Source: Oscillospiraceae bacterium (GTDB taxonomy: Bacteria; Bacillota; Clostridia; Oscillospirales; Oscillospiraceae). Taken from it: a stretch of 38,035 nt of DNA. A program made the position numbers and the translations under genes. Of the stretch, positions 2,820 to 10,722 are shown piece after piece. Location: NCBI GenBank assembly GCA_017437095.1, contig JAFSBW010000081.1, positions 1-38,035 on the forward strand, read 5' to 3'. The notes under the pieces were generated by a model, which was given only the letters and a program-made list of their open reading frames with translations, was not told the origin of the DNA and made no database searches. Each line of letters opens with the position of its first letter. Within the stretch, counting starts at the first letter, position 1.

Positions 2820-3308
2820 TCACATCTCCCTAGCATATTGCGCAATCAGGTTTCTTACGGTGTCAAACTTTTCTTTGTCAAAAACATAGGCCTTTCTGGG
2901 CTTTACAAAGTTGCCGCTGCCCCGTTTTTCCTGGGGATAGCGGGGAATGAGCTGGATATGGTAATGGTTATTGGGCCCGTCGCACATGGTGCAAAGATAC
3001 ACCCTCTCGCAGCCGTACACCTGGCAAAGGATGCCCATAAAGCGCTTGGCAAAGCGGACGATCTTCTCGTTGACAATATCCGGGGCTTCGCTCATGTCGT
3101 GATAGTGCTTTACTGTGGAAATGCACATATGCCCCGGGGCTCTGGGGTTACCTACGAAGAAGCACTCAATGTCCTCATCCTGGTAGAGCAGCTTATCGGC
3201 GTTGCTGCCGTACAGCGCGCCGCCGGTTTCCCGGTTGAAGCAGGTAGGGCAGATGCCCAGATCCACAAGCTCCCCGGGGGAGAGCTTCAAAAGTTCTTCC
3301 TTTGTCAC
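2820..3308 (-). CDS. HIT family protein
   Basis: This 162-residue protein carries the histidine-triad nucleotide-binding signature as NNHYHIQLIPRY: His115 and His117 are present and the third triad position is Gln119, as in the GalT/aprataxin-like branch with HxHxQ. CPTC (20-23) is a possible zinc ligand pair. Family members hydrolyse or transfer nucleotidyl groups from dinucleotides or nucleoside phosphoramidates in the cytosol. The start is GTG: an in-frame TGA lies three codons upstream and the next ATG is residue 61, past conserved sequence. GGGAG lies about 10 bases upstream. Substrate cannot be predicted. No clear promoter was found. Confidence 0.85.
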   Translation of the reverse strand: MTKEELLKLSPGELVDLGICPTCFNRETGGALYGSNADKLLYQDEDIECFFVGNPRAPGHMCISTVKHYHDMSEAPDIVNEKIVRFAKRFMGILCQVYGCERVYLCTMCDGPNNHYHIQLIPRYPQEKRGSGNFVKPRKAYVFDKEKFDTVRNLIAQYAREM

Positions 3309-3504
3309 GGTTTTTCACGCTCCCGTCTGCCGCCAGGCGGCGTTTTTCTTCCCCAATGGTAACAGCCATGGGCGAAATTGTCAACACATCCCGCCAATCT
3401 TTCCATGCCAGGCGAAGGGGCGCTGTCTGCAGCAATCTTACCTCCAAACCAGATGTAGGACAAGAGATATGTAATATGGGCTTCAGCGAAGCCTATCTGA
3501 TATC

Positions 3505-3565
3505 TTATTCCTTGGGTATCTCCAGGAGATTGCCACGGACGGCGTAGCCGTCCTCGCAATGACAG
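3505..3565. repeat. Dispersed palindromic repeat (GGAGATTGCC...GCAATGACA type)
   Basis: An intergenic hairpin with stem GGACGGC / GCCGTCC and loop GTA is flanked by outer pairs ATTGC / GCAAT. The motif 'TGTCATTGCGAGG ... GTGGCAATCTCC' resembles short repeats seen in many unrelated bacterial genomes. The rest of the 289-base gap between the HIT and YolD genes has a second smaller hairpin (GGGCTTCAGCGAAGCC) and nothing else recognisable. Confidence 0.55.
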
Positions 3566-5919: not shown

Positions 5920-7062
5920 TTATCTCTTAGCCAAAAGGGCTTCGATCTTCTTAATGGGGTCGATAATGGAGCTTACGGACATATCGTGGTTGATGGCGGC
6001 TATGAAATAGGCTGCGTACTTGGAGCAGTCTACATCGAAATACCAATCCCGCTTCAGCAGCTCAGGCTTGCGGTAGGTAAGGTTGGTGCCCAGCACGGCG
6101 GTAAGCACGCCCTCCTCCACAGCGGCGTCAAACTTGTCCAGGCCGCTGGTAAACAGGGGGAAGGTAGCGTTGGCGATGATGCGCTTGGCGCCCCGCTTCT
6201 TCAGCTCACGGCCTACTTCCAGCATGCTTTCGCCGGAAGCGATGATATCGTCAGCGATAAACACGGTCTTGCCCTCTACGCTCTCGCCTAGGTACTCATG
6301 GGCAACGATGGGGTTGCGGCCGTTGACTACACGGGTATAGTCGCGGCGCTTGTAGAACATACCCAGGTTGCAGCTGAGCACGCTGGAGAAGTACATATTG
6401 CGGTTGATAGCGCCTTCGTCGGGGCTGATGACCATGAAGCTGTCCTTATCGAAGCTCAGCTCGGGAATGTGCTTGAGCAGAGTTTTCAGCACCTGATAGG
6501 TGGGCATGACATTATCGAAGCTCATCAGAGGCACGGCGTTCATCATGCGCGGATCGTGGGCGTCAAAGGTAATGATATTGGCAACGCCCATAGCCTGCAG
6601 CTCCTGCAGGGCCACGGCACAGTCCAGACTCTCACGAACCATTCTGCGGTGCTGACGGCCGCCGTACAGGCTGGTCATAATCACGCTGATGCGGTGGGCC
6701 CGGCCGGCCACAGCCTGGATCAGGCGCTTGAGGTTGGCAAAGTGATCATCGGGAGACATATGGTTCTCGTAGCCGAAAAGGTTGTAGGTCATAGCATAGT
6801 TGCCGGGGTCGCACACGATAAAGATATCGTCACCGCGGACAGAAGCCTTTACCAGGCCCTTGGCATCGCCGTTCTGGAAACGGGGGCAATCGCAGCCGAC
6901 AACAAAAGTATCGGTATCCATACCCACCTCTCTGGCCCAGCAGACCAGGTGCTTATCGATCAGGTTGGTGATCTCTTCTGCGCCGGGGCAGGCGATTAGG
7001 GACAGATGGGCTTCCTGGGTATCGGGGTTAAAGAAAGCGGAAGGTGTAACGGTGTTGGACAT
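5920..7062 (-). CDS. prs: Ribose-phosphate pyrophosphokinase (PRPP synthetase)
   Basis: The enzyme makes PRPP from ribose 5-phosphate and ATP, the precursor for purines, pyrimidines, His, Trp and NAD. At 380 residues it is longer than the usual 310-320. Visible motifs are the metal-binding DAHDP (167-171), a flexible-loop region KRRDYTRVVNGRNPIVAHEY starting at 238, and the PRPP loop VFIADDIIASGES (267-279) with Asp271-Asp272. It belongs to a divergent Clostridia-type branch; the canonical SRQ/GYARQDRK regions appear as SLYGGRQHRRM. AGAAGGAG precedes the start. A TACAAT -10 box lies at 7123-7128 with a poor -35. The 7063-7267 gap is otherwise AT-rich with no gene seen. Confidence 0.88.
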   Translation of the reverse strand: MSNTVTPSAFFNPDTQEAHLSLIACPGAEEITNLIDKHLVCWAREVGMDTDTFVVGCDCPRFQNGDAKGLVKASVRGDDIFIVCDPGNYAMTYNLFGYENHMSPDDHFANLKRLIQAVAGRAHRISVIMTSLYGGRQHRRMVRESLDCAVALQELQAMGVANIITFDAHDPRMMNAVPLMSFDNVMPTYQVLKTLLKHIPELSFDKDSFMVISPDEGAINRNMYFSSVLSCNLGMFYKRRDYTRVVNGRNPIVAHEYLGESVEGKTVFIADDIIASGESMLEVGRELKKRGAKRIIANATFPLFTSGLDKFDAAVEEGVLTAVLGTNLTYRKPELLKRDWYFDVDCSKYAAYFIAAINHDMSVSSIIDPIKKIEALLAKR

Positions 7063-7588: not shown

Positions 7589-8101
7589 TTAGTATTCTCC
7601 CAGCCAGCGGCCGGATCGGATGCTTACCGCCCTGCCCTCTGCCAGGCTCTGCTTTACATCCAGGATACGCTGGTTACGGCTGCCCCGGAAGGAAATTTCC
7701 AGGCTCTTCTGGGCCAGCAGGAAAGGCCCGTCGATAAGCACATCGATTTCTTCCAAAAGGGCCTTTTGCTCCGGCGTACCGCTCAGGAGCTGCTCAAAGG
7801 TGTAGCCCGTATAGCTGGCTACCTCGTAACCCTCCCCCTTCAGCGCCCGGGCCAGCTCCAAAAAGCCCTCCGCCTGGGCAAAAGGCTCGCCGCCGGAGAA
7901 GGTAACGCCCCGGCAAAGGGGATTGTTTTTCACGATCGCAACCAGCTCCTGCGTGTCCATAGCCGTGCCCCCGGCAAAGGGCCAGGTTTCCGGATTATGG
8001 CAGCCAGGGCAGCGGTGAGGGCAGCCCTGGGCAAAAAAGGTGGTGCGAATGCCGGGGCCATCCACAATGGAGTCCCCGGCGATTCCGGACAGATAGATCA
8101 T
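7589..8101 (-). CDS. nrdG: Anaerobic ribonucleotide reductase activating protein
   Basis: This 170-residue radical-SAM activase generates the glycyl radical on the class III reductase. The cluster motif is CPHRCPGC (Cys27, Cys31, Cys34; CxxxCxxC) followed by HNPETW, with SGGEPFAQ for SAM binding around 90-97. An in-frame upstream ATG is possible, but the ATG at 8101 matches family N-termini (IYLSGIAGDSIVDGPG) and overlaps the stop of the glycyl-radical-domain gene as ATGA. It has little ribosome site of its own, so translation is probably coupled to that gene. This links activase production to its substrate domain. Confidence 0.95.
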   Translation of the reverse strand: MIYLSGIAGDSIVDGPGIRTTFFAQGCPHRCPGCHNPETWPFAGGTAMDTQELVAIVKNNPLCRGVTFSGGEPFAQAEGFLELARALKGEGYEVASYTGYTFEQLLSGTPEQKALLEEIDVLIDGPFLLAQKSLEISFRGSRNQRILDVKQSLAEGRAVSIRSGRWLGEY

Positions 8102-8256
8102 TGCTTTTGCAGGCTGTGCTTTACACGGTCCCGCTCTTCGGCGCGCTTGGCGTCGTTCCACTTATCCATGGTACCCACCAGATAGCCGGTGATACGGCGG
8201 ATACGCTCGAAGCCTACGCCCTGACCCATTTTTTCGTTGTTGCTCTTAACAGTCAT
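8098..8256 (-). CDS. Stand-alone glycyl radical domain of anaerobic ribonucleotide reductase
   Basis: A 52-residue protein whose second half is the C-terminal end normally fused to NrdD: FERIRRITGYLVGTMDKWND followed by AKRAEERDRVKHSL. RRITGYL is the RxxGY glycyl radical motif, with Gly24 as the predicted radical site. NrdD upstream stops after its zinc-binding Cys region and lacks this motif. The gene has its own ATG and a perfect GGAGGT six bases before it. It lies in the same frame as nrdD, separated only by TAA plus four codons. It is probably co-translated with nrdG. Either the reductase works as two chains, or a single base change made the stop; the well-placed ribosome site favours the former. 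Confidence 0.85.
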   Translation of the reverse strand: MTVKSNNEKMGQGVGFERIRRITGYLVGTMDKWNDAKRAEERDRVKHSLQKQ

Positions 8257-8268
8257 GGTGTTACCTCC

Positions 8269-10551
8269 TTATTCGATACCCTGGAATGCAGGCATTTCCG
8301 GGTACATTCTCTTAAGCTCGTCGATTTTTTCCTGGGGGATCATCTCGCCCTCATGGCGGCCGCAGCGGGGGCAGACATCGCCGATGATGCCCACATAGCC
8401 GCAGATGGGGTCACGGTCTACGGGGTGGTTGATAGAGCCGTAGCCGATGCCGAAATCGTGCATGCAGCGCACGATGGACTCGAAAGCTTCCACATTTCTC
8501 GCAGTATCGCCGTCCAGCTCCACATAGCTGATATGGCCGGCGTTGCACAGGGCATGGTAGGGCGCTTCCAAACGGATCTTATCATAGGCGGAGATGGGAT
8601 ACCATACGGGGATATGGAAGGAGTTGGTATAGTACTCCCGGTCGGTAACGCCCTTGATCTTGCCGTAGCGCTTCTGGTCCATGCGGATGAAGCGGCCGGA
8701 AAGGCCCTCGGCAGGGGTGCCCAGCAGGGAGAAGTTCATCTTCAGCTCCTGGGACTTATCGTCGCAGAACTTGCGCATAAAGCCCAGGATCTCCTTGCCC
8801 TTGGCCTGGATGTCCTCGCTCTGGCCGTGGTGCTGGCCGTAGAGGGCGGTAAGGGTCTCTGCCAGGCCGATAAAGCCGATGGACAGGGTGCCGTGCTTCA
8901 AAACCTCCCGCAGATCGTCATGGATGCTCAGGTGGTCGCTGTCCAGCCACACGCCCTGGCCCATGAGGAAGGGATAGTTGTAGATATGCTTGCTGGCCTG
9001 GATCTCAAAGCGGTCCAGCAGCTGCTGGGCAACCAGCTCCAGCATGCCCTGAAGCTTTTCATAGAACAGCTTCTCGTCGCCCTGGCTTTCGATGGCCAGG
9101 CGGGGCAGGTTGATAGAGGTAAAGCTCAGGTTGCCGCGGGAGAAGGAGATCTCCCGGGTGGGGTCGAACACATTGCCCATGACCCGGGTACGGCAGCCCA
9201 TGGTGGCTACCTCGGTTTCGGGGCGGCCGGGGACATAGTACTGCAGGTTAAACGGGGCATCCAGGAAGGTATAGTTGGGGAACAAGCGGCGGGCGCTGAC
9301 CTTGCAGCTAAGGCGGAACAGATCGTAGTTGGGGTCGGCTTCGTTGTAGTTAACGCCCTCTTTTACCTTGAAGATGTGGATGGGGAAGATGCAGGTCTCG
9401 CCGTGGCCCAGGCCGGCATCCAAAGCCAGCAGGATGTTGCGGATGACCATGCGGCCTTCCGGGGAAACATCCGTGCCGTAGTTGATGGAGGAGAAGGGGG
9501 TCTGGGCGCCGGCGCGGGAGTGCATAGTGTTCAGGTTGTGAACAAAGCCCTCCATGGCCTGCTTGGTGTCCCGGTCGGTCTTGGCCCAGGCCCGCTTTTG
9601 GGCCCGGGATACCAGACGCTGGGCATCCGCCTGGGAGATGTTATAGCTCTCTACCAGGGCGGCGGCCAGGGCATCGGTAAAGGCCTTGGTATTCTCCAGG
9701 CGGGCAGTTTCGCCCAGCTCATTTTCTACGCCCTTGATCAGAGCGGAAACGGCTTCGGCTTCGTCGTCAGAGCCGATCAGGTCTTCGGTAGCATCTCTCA
9801 GGCGGCGGTTAAAGGCCTTGCGGTAGGTCTTGGCAACGCCCTCGGCCATGCCGTAGTCAAAGTTGGGGATGGACTGGCCGCCGTGCTGGTCGTTCTGGTT
9901 GGACTGGATGGCGATGGCAGCCAGGGCGGCATAGCTCTGGATGCTCTGGGGCTCGCGCAGGTAGCCATGGCCGGTGGAGAAGCCGCCGTGGAACAGCTTG
10001 AGAATGTCGATCTGGCAGCAGGTGGTAGTCAGGCTGTAGAAATCAAAGTCGTGAATGTGGATGTCGCCCTCCCGGTAAGCCTTGGCATGCTCCGGGCGCA
10101 GCAGATACATCTCGTTGTAGGCCTTGGCGCCGGCAGCGCCGATCTGCAGCATGCTGCCCATGGCGGTGTTGCCGTCGATGTTGGCGTTGTCCCGCTTCAT
10201 ATCGCTGATGCGGGCATCGATGTTGGTGATCTCGTCGATGGTGCGCATCAGGCCGGTGTTGGCCTCTCTGGCCCGGGTACGGTTGGCCCGGTAGAGGATG
10301 TAGGCCTTGGCGGCATCGTTGAAGCCGTGGTTCATGAGCTGCTGCTCTACGGTATCCTGAATGGCCTCGATGTTGGGGGCCTGGTCGGTAAATCTGGCCT
10401 CCAGATCCCGCTGGACATGGTCGGCAACTCTGGCGGCGTCCATGGCATCGCCGGAGTGGGAAGCTTCCATAGAACGCAGGATGGCTGCGGCGATCTTGCC
10501 CTGTTCATAGAGCACTACGCGGCCGTCCCGCTTGATAATACTGCGAATCAT
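8269..10551 (-). CDS. nrdD: Anaerobic ribonucleoside-triphosphate reductase, catalytic part
   Basis: This 760-residue class III reductase subunit reduces ribonucleotides to deoxyribonucleotides without oxygen. Residues 1-90 form an ATP-cone regulatory domain (IIKRDGRVVLYEQGKIAAAI). The barrel contains the conserved GDIHIHDFDFYS and TTTCCQIDI segments and later HNLNTMHSRAGAQ. Near the end it has CGYVGIIGDV and CPRCGRHEGE (Cys717, Cys727, Cys730), the zinc-binding region. The chain then ends PEMPAFQGIE without the RxxGY glycyl radical motif that full-length NrdD carries; that motif is on the next gene. AAAGGGTG precedes the ATG. Tandem NrdR boxes overlap the promoter. Confidence 0.95.
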   Translation of the reverse strand: MIRSIIKRDGRVVLYEQGKIAAAILRSMEASHSGDAMDAARVADHVQRDLEARFTDQAPNIEAIQDTVEQQLMNHGFNDAAKAYILYRANRTRAREANTGLMRTIDEITNIDARISDMKRDNANIDGNTAMGSMLQIGAAGAKAYNEMYLLRPEHAKAYREGDIHIHDFDFYSLTTTCCQIDILKLFHGGFSTGHGYLREPQSIQSYAALAAIAIQSNQNDQHGGQSIPNFDYGMAEGVAKTYRKAFNRRLRDATEDLIGSDDEAEAVSALIKGVENELGETARLENTKAFTDALAAALVESYNISQADAQRLVSRAQKRAWAKTDRDTKQAMEGFVHNLNTMHSRAGAQTPFSSINYGTDVSPEGRMVIRNILLALDAGLGHGETCIFPIHIFKVKEGVNYNEADPNYDLFRLSCKVSARRLFPNYTFLDAPFNLQYYVPGRPETEVATMGCRTRVMGNVFDPTREISFSRGNLSFTSINLPRLAIESQGDEKLFYEKLQGMLELVAQQLLDRFEIQASKHIYNYPFLMGQGVWLDSDHLSIHDDLREVLKHGTLSIGFIGLAETLTALYGQHHGQSEDIQAKGKEILGFMRKFCDDKSQELKMNFSLLGTPAEGLSGRFIRMDQKRYGKIKGVTDREYYTNSFHIPVWYPISAYDKIRLEAPYHALCNAGHISYVELDGDTARNVEAFESIVRCMHDFGIGYGSINHPVDRDPICGYVGIIGDVCPRCGRHEGEMIPQEKIDELKRMYPEMPAFQGIE

Positions 10552-10654
10552 TGTAATGCACCCTTTCTCTTTTTCCCCATTTATGCCTCAAATCGGCCAC
10601 TTTACCCCAAAAACAGGCAAAAGCAAAACTATTATGGGGTATTTGCCTGGGGAA

Positions 10655-10722
10655 ACACAATATCTTGTGTTTAAATTTCATTCCCTCCCCCATATATTGG
10701 CATAAGATTGCCCATTTGTCAA
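10655..10722 (-). promoter_or_regulatory. nrdD promoter with tandem NrdR boxes
   Basis: The proximal box ACACAAGATATTGTGT matches the NrdR consensus (ACAC-WATATATW-GTGT) closely. A weaker distal box, TGCCAATATATGGGGG, lies exactly 16 bases upstream, the spacing of three helical turns seen in known NrdR regulons. TTGACA lies at 10717-10722 and the likely -10 (AATATA) falls inside the distal box, so NrdR binding would block transcription when dATP is high. The 10552-10654 leader is otherwise unremarkable. Confidence 0.85.

Follow-up and report, generated by a model that had tools for sequence, protein, structure and literature searches.

The table of one review lists the radical of class III ribonucleotide reductase (RNR) as 'Glycine in enzyme', i.e. 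as a glycine in the catalytic chain (PMC4390871). Passages on fused NrdD enzymes describe the radical domain as mobile (PMC11226230), flipping out for the activase NrdG and then returning to the core (PMC12662201). For pyruvate formate-lyase (PFL), passages of PMC8683613 state that the small protein YfiD repeats the strand left on PFL by cleavage, and that PFL residues 696-733 matter for PFL activation. The open-access literature, as covered by titles, abstract beginnings and text passages, yielded neither a class III RNR whose radical domain has a gene to itself nor a spare part for NrdD. Here we describe such an arrangement in an Oscillospiraceae bacterium, on contig JAFSBW010000081.1 of assembly GCA_017437095.1 (the 38,035 nt analyzed are called the window throughout), where the glycyl radical domain is encoded by a small gene directly behind nrdD. 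We hold, at a probability of roughly 0.86, that the two products constitute a working two-chain class III RNR, with the radical domain as an exchangeable subunit analogous to YfiD/GrcA that would dock, be activated and be replaced after oxygen damage. A two-chain enzyme had been predicted earlier from the window's sequence, and several findings now support it: the split is conserved, purifying selection acts on it, the spacers vary and are in part out of frame, and no other RNR was detectable in 13 of 36 surveyed genomes.

Layout and domain content of the split locus

The genes concerned lie on the minus strand. nrdD (8269..10551) encodes 760 residues ending in CPRCGRHEGEMIPQEKIDELKRMYPEMPAFQGIE, with an ATP-cone, the catalytic barrel and a putative zinc-finger region, and is closed by a TAA that can be read directly from the sequence (8269..8271). 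Adjoining this stop is the Shine-Dalgarno sequence of the small gene, GGAGGT (8263..8268), 6 nt ahead of an ATG. The small gene itself (8098..8256), located 12 nt 3' of nrdD and sharing its frame in the window, encodes a glycyl radical domain protein of 52 residues, MTVKSNNEKMGQGVGFERIRRITGYLVGTMDKWNDAKRAEERDRVKHSLQKQ, in which the predicted radical glycine, counted along the sequence, is Gly24 of RRITGYL (codon 8185..8187); the G of TGY was invariant across 14 aligned radical domains. Its stop overlaps the start of nrdG as ATGA (8098-8101), and nrdG (7589..8101) encodes, from the ATG at 8101, a radical S-adenosylmethionine (radical-SAM) activase of 170 residues, the product scoring 140.9 bits against NCBIfam TIGR02491 (cut-off 126.1).

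The 562 positions of Pfam NRDD (PF13597) were divided between the two open reading frames (ORFs), positions 1-531 falling on the large one (E 6.6e-180) and 533-562 on the small one (E 1.2e-8). The large chain also matched the ATP-cone PF03477 (E 1e-20), NCBIfam PRK07111 (1055 bits) and structure 8p23 (E 1e-169), and contains MGCRTR, presumably the finger loop bearing the cysteine. The putative zinc region, CGY...CPRC, has three cysteines where 8p23 has four, and fused relatives show the identical pattern. The RxxGY glycyl radical motif is absent from the 760-residue chain and sits on the 52-residue chain. In NCBIfam, which we take to include a GrcA model, the small protein matched NrdD models only at E<=1, and thus lacks the PFL-type domain that defines the GrcA family. 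No intervening sequence of the intron or intein kind lies between the pieces, which are separated by a 12-nt spacer with stop and ribosome site.

Sequence and Pfam division together bear out the original prediction that the radical motif is on its own 52-residue gene, 12 nt downstream in frame and behind a perfect ribosome site, and the proposed coupling of nrdG to the small gene through an ATGA overlap holds at 8098-8101. The further claim that NrdD ends after the zinc region has to be amended, as a conserved tail follows: these 28 C-terminal residues after CPRCGR, HEGEMIPQEKIDELKRMYPEMPAFQGIE (8272..8355), are stem-like, with the glycine loop lost.

About 100 nt before the nrdD start lies an NrdR-box-like palindrome, ACACAATATCTTGTGT (10655..10670, without strand), which has 0 mismatches to an NrdR-box pattern; with up to 3 mismatches, this pattern matched 10 times in the window, versus a mean of 3.64 in shuffled sequence. 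NrdR sites are described, in a passage of PMC12051234, as pairs of 16-bp palindromes, of which one was noted before the window's nrdD. An antisense open frame of 857 residues covers nrdD on the plus strand (window 8101-10674), probably as a by-product of codon usage.

Conservation, selection and rival explanations

A search of relatives for the same split, which the original prediction had proposed as a check, found it in 30 of 32 genus orthologs, and in 96 distinct pairs overall. The small protein had matches in 31 of 101 genus genomes, the window's own included. Thirty of these genes lie in short frames of their own, the opposite of the unbroken frame in close relatives that had been named as the refuting case; the 31st, in G026, is of a different, stand-alone type. 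The 32 nrdD orthologs were defined at an identity of at least 80%, and the two without a small gene are a contig that ends inside nrdD (G015) and a match that starts at contig base 2 (G064). Fused counterparts were found only beyond the genus, further out in the family.

The full split set holds 112 rows in 111 loci, which reduce to the 96 distinct pairs of tail and small protein, mostly from Clostridia and Bacilli. Named carriers include Massiliimalia timonensis Marseille-P3753 (L096), Gemmiger sp. An87 (L113), bacterium 1XD42-1 (L133) and Oscillospiraceae bacterium MH27-2 (L119), and one carrier is labelled Campylobacterota (L117). In a set of 109 split NrdD chains, which counts near-copies and one chain cut by its contig, neither RxxGY nor RxxGF was found within the last 60 residues of any chain. 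By tblastn, NrdG lies within 900 nt downstream in 82 of the 96 pairs, with 12 lacking it and 2 loci being too short; in a simpler motif scan, the commonest arrangement of small gene and nrdG was an 8-nt overlap (37 of 57 loci). At L099 (3311-3638), a zinc-finger-like nrdD remnant precedes a radical-domain gene and nrdG, and no nrdD core was found upstream, pointing to an assembly fault or a moved core.

The RNR complement was surveyed in 36 chosen genomes, 97-100% complete and all with short radical-domain frames, using PF02867 (class I/II large subunits, E<=1e-10) and PF13597. PF02867 was absent at this threshold from 26 of the 36, and in 13 genomes (98-100% complete) the two-chain NrdD is the sole detectable RNR, so that it should work there. 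In G468, G570, G565, G617, G397, G442, G472 and G509 the core extends to position 530-531 and the radical domain adjoins it on a shared strand, and in G522, G543, G563, G590 and G458 the core extends to 539-540 and the radical domain is on a different contig. (In the radical-domain row of G442, the NRDD search prints the core's frame; an earlier radical-domain search gives a frame of 62.) The remaining 23 genomes have another RNR candidate, ten through PF02867 (five at 41-49 bits only) and 13 through a further NRDD match. Genomes without another detectable RNR would argue, indirectly, for ribonucleoside triphosphate (NTP) reductase activity of the two-chain enzyme.

These genomes also bear on the possibility that the small protein is a spare part only, rescuing an oxygen-damaged intact enzyme as YfiD does for PFL, and not the normal radical carrier. 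Such a role fits the 17 genomes with both long and short radical-domain frames in the order sample (245 genomes, 101 with radical-domain matches of at least 60 bits, of which 43 have short frames only and 41 long frames only), and it fits two operons, L175 (G711) and L176 (G840), each with a stand-alone radical-domain gene (about 90 residues) between an intact nrdD and nrdG. However, split NrdDs, the window's included, have no glycine motif of their own, and in the 13 genomes the small protein must be the standing radical carrier; we therefore regard an exclusive spare-part role as unlikely.

Within the genus, purifying selection on the small gene is strong. From its start to RVKH, pN/pS was 0.071 and dN/dS about 0.04 (27 of 30 genus members, of equal length; the set was picked by a fixed residue string that all 30 genus loci match, and 3 of the 30 were dropped for length), and by part, dN/dS was 0.075 for codons 1-14 and 0.001 for the remainder. 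For the NrdD tail after CPRCGR, pN/pS was 0.19 in 30 genus members, where pS reached 0.73, close to saturation; its YPxMPAFQGI stretch is invariant in all 30 at every position but the x.

Some points weigh against a working two-chain enzyme. Many of the records are, by their titles, metagenome-assembled genomes, and the window's genome (77% complete), in which PF02867 was absent at E<=1e-5, also has a fused NrdD, L158 (contig C69), about 30% identical, ending in NVARRTCGYIGT... and bearing the radical motif RRTCGYIG, so that the split enzyme need not be the sole RNR there. Neither this second, unsplit NrdD nor the decayed, radical-domain-like tail of the split one was part of the original prediction. 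Together with the second NrdD, about 30% identical, of many genus members (fused in G000 and G015), L158 would allow the split locus to be a decaying duplicate, on its way out as a fused NrdD elsewhere does the work. Against this stand the strong purifying selection on the small gene, the NrdR-like box in front, the overlap with nrdG and the genomes without another detectable RNR; the 30 genus small genes found are also all intact, though a broken one could escape detection. A decaying duplicate is thus quite improbable.

Spacers between nrdD and the small gene range from 0 to 411 nt (483 if the second copy in L101 is counted), and among 95 distinct pairs, 46 have a length that is a multiple of three and 49 are out of frame. 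Because the 'first ATG' rule sets the start too far upstream in some loci (e.g. L007, L009, L025), these lengths are approximate, with the frame unaffected. All three stop codons close the split nrdD genes (TAA 78, TGA 23 and TAG 11 in the 112 rows, near-copies included), which together with the out-of-frame spacers excludes general read-through, and the chosen ATG is preceded within 18 nt by GGAG or AGGA in 87 of the 95 distinct pairs (GGAGG in 60). Against these spacers, stops and ribosome-site-like sequences, and stand-alone genes on other contigs, a single polypeptide after all, produced by stop read-through, frameshifting or assembly error as the shared frame and 12-nt distance of the window's two ORFs might suggest, is hardly credible. 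Sequencing error, a pseudogene, read-through and a programmed frameshift were each ruled out from the relatives.

The NrdD tail and separate radical domains

Past the zinc finger, fused relatives continue with e.g. GRTEADGVPFERIRRITGYLVGT..., and split NrdDs with GRREGEEIPFERVEELRRLYPEMPAFQGIE or similar, over 17 to 51 residues after CxxCGR (92 unique tails). The split tail appears to keep the stem (V/I)PxE(R/K)(I/L)xxL of the fused glycyl radical domain, with the TGY loop lost. A register test on 34 non-redundant tails gave one best offset of 26 (score 0.99 versus 0.28 for the next), which in the fused subtype whose linker is shortest falls at zero offset, counted from the zinc finger, and column permutations reached the observed score 2, 42 and 6 times in 100,000, depending on fused subtype (2e-5 to 4e-4). 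With a tail that resembles a decayed radical domain, the split looks as if a separate copy had taken over; plain fission of nrdD in its unchanged form is less likely, since the tail seems to retain a degenerate stem. Some longer NrdD tails (L104, L137, L186, L188, L122, L110, L133, L095, L107) carry GYHGDP or CGYCGD and an EERDR-like end, stretches that are possibly further radical-domain remnants or a redox pair.

Several results count against this account of the tail and of the split. Of 28 fused rows, only 9 fit the best register without a gap, the register being shifted by one residue for 18 and by two for 1; the test used 12 columns, chosen after the alignment had been seen, on tails that are related; and in a single-tail hidden Markov model (HMM) test, 14 of 92 tails beat all 50 of their own shuffles, a weak signal that leaves the pooled register test as the one convincing result. 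In a tree of 97 NrdD cores (69 split, 28 fused), fused forms are nested among split ones, which allows more than one order and number of origins. The tree implies at least 4 state changes, 2 of them forced by well-supported branches; it omits near-copies, and because its sampling followed similarity to the small gene, it contains too few fused forms.

A second path to a core without its own radical domain was seen in G282, G522, G543, G563, G590, G458 and G860, where NrdD stops at or just past the radical position. The truncated genes (L195, L198, L199, L200, L201, L203 and L207) end in e.g. ...ESFERIRRIRI or ...HFERIPRL, the longest (L199) running about 8 residues further, and have real TGA or TAA stops. 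No radical loop was found beside them, save a chance TGY-like match about 560 nt downstream in L198. Each of the seven genomes has a single radical-domain match, on another contig, in an ORF that measures 89 to 143 codons from stop to stop; G860 additionally has a class I/II-type PF02867 match. NrdDs with a stem-only tail, like the truncated ones, resemble enzymes that are permanently 'cut', with a separate domain serving them; the truncated NrdDs and the stand-alone genes are consistent with docking in trans.

Genes of the stand-alone type have about 45 extra N-terminal residues (GGxL...DGEYxxLxY; e.g. L144:3348-3617), a region that matched no family of its own in Pfam or NCBIfam in the five proteins scanned. 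The short gene is of this type in G197, G535, G579 and G581, four genomes fetched from the 17 with long and short frames. Upstream of stand-alone genes, NrdR-like matches with up to 3 mismatches occurred in 20 of 30 cases, versus 4.1% of mononucleotide shuffles, and with up to 2 mismatches in 10 of 30, versus 0.5% of shuffles; several of them overlap a -10-like element, making the count generous. In a sample of the phylum (299 genomes, of which 120 had matches at E<=1e-8), short frames were found alone or next to long ones. Duplicated genes occur as well: L101 has a tandem pair between nrdD and nrdG (2920-3556), G481 has three short radical-domain genes at three sites (L177-L179), one of them behind a split nrdD, and in G439 and G421 an additional copy lies close to the operon (L180, L181). 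G220, the genome that contains the split nrdD operon L161, likewise has a second short radical-domain gene (L162, contig 25).

Viral contigs were scanned through the best 80 of 244 loci, several being near-copies. In 64 of the 80, a short radical-domain ORF was present and nrdD was absent from the flank fetched around it (up to 3.5 kb); of the others, 10 are fused and 3 split, 2 have nrdD at another place in the locus, and 1 is unresolved. These short domains on viral-classed contigs fall within L214-L292, and 47 of 50 whole viral records searched (9-95 kb, maybe fragments) had no nrdD match at E<=1e-5. The full 39-residue domain is present in 77 of the 80 loci, as 65 distinct strings; L235 has no recognised motif, and the ORF readings of L226, L227, L251, L256 and L257 extend past the domain. 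PHROGs neighbours include holin, endolysin, integrase and reverse transcriptase (L247), endolysin and PAPS reductase (L229), and exonuclease and small terminase (L280), and L213 looks like host DNA, its nrdD being 85% identical to the window's. In Eggerthella phage EL753P1 (L293, ~5926-6140), an nrdD end without radical motif has a radical-domain ORF downstream, annotated as hypothetical protein, with a break in its frame immediately ahead of the TGY loop.

Occurrence as a separate piece in relatives and, apparently, in some phages suggests an exchangeable part. The chances seem about even that many Bacillota class III RNRs use an exchangeable pool of small radical subunits, encoded in operons, in duplicate or as stand-alone genes and regulated by NrdR as the enzyme is, and that phages bring only the radical subunit, with which a split or oxygen-cut NrdD of the host would be activated or revived for phage DNA synthesis.

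Proposed mechanism and comparison with known systems

In the two-chain enzyme as we envisage it, the large chain would supply the ATP-cone, the active-site barrel and the zinc-finger region, and the 52-residue chain the C-terminal tail and the entire loop with the radical glycine. Ribosomes would start on the small gene at the site that directly follows the nrdD stop, and on nrdG at the 3' end of the small gene, so that joint production of all three proteins is probable. By non-covalent docking, the small chain would place Gly24 at the cysteine loop, and NrdG would generate the radical on it. An oxygen cut at the glycine would then cost a short piece only, which another copy could replace. As to origin, a separate copy of the nrdD 3' end probably made the built-in glycine loop dispensable, after which the loop would have decayed; the stem left on NrdD may serve as a docking handle.

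A separable radical subunit offers a natural system for studying how NrdG reaches the glycine and how the domain moves in and out. Truncated or split NrdDs and loose small ORFs probably pass for broken genes in annotation, and phage-borne radical subunits would be a minimal route to taking over host deoxyribonucleoside triphosphate (dNTP) synthesis. The subunit also bears on spare parts beyond PFL, which the relevant passage of PMC8683613 merely speculates about.

Of the described systems, split class II NrdJa/NrdJb is likewise a two-chain RNR, of a different class, according to the part of PMC9669993 consulted. Phage nrdD genes with introns or inteins also come in pieces, but through intervening sequences (PMC3653736, in passages), whereas the window has two complete genes with 12 nt and a ribosome site between them. 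Fused NrdD shares with the window's enzyme the barrel, the cysteine loop, the putative zinc region, the sequence of the radical domain and the NrdG partner, and differs in that the split enzyme has its radical domain on a chain of its own and a decayed stem in its place on the large chain. The fused forms compared were Prevotella copri 8P23, 9D3X and 1H78, which we take to be the phage T4 NrdD; the ATP-cone is common to the window's NrdD, 8P23 and 9D3X. Closest in function would be GrcA/YfiD of E. coli and Y06I of phage T4, likewise small stand-alone glycyl radical domains expected to dock on an enzyme missing its own. In both cases activation is expected via the activase of the large enzyme, the small domain repeats a segment that stays on the large chain, and a phage version exists (PMC8683613). 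Unlike GrcA/YfiD, the small protein is of NrdD type, has NrdD and not PFL as its expected partner, forms an operon with nrdD and nrdG, and would be the permanent radical carrier in split lineages. By this analogy, which the duplicated, stand-alone and viral radical domains strengthen, it would work in the manner of YfiD/GrcA from outside that family, docking in trans and providing for cheap replacement.

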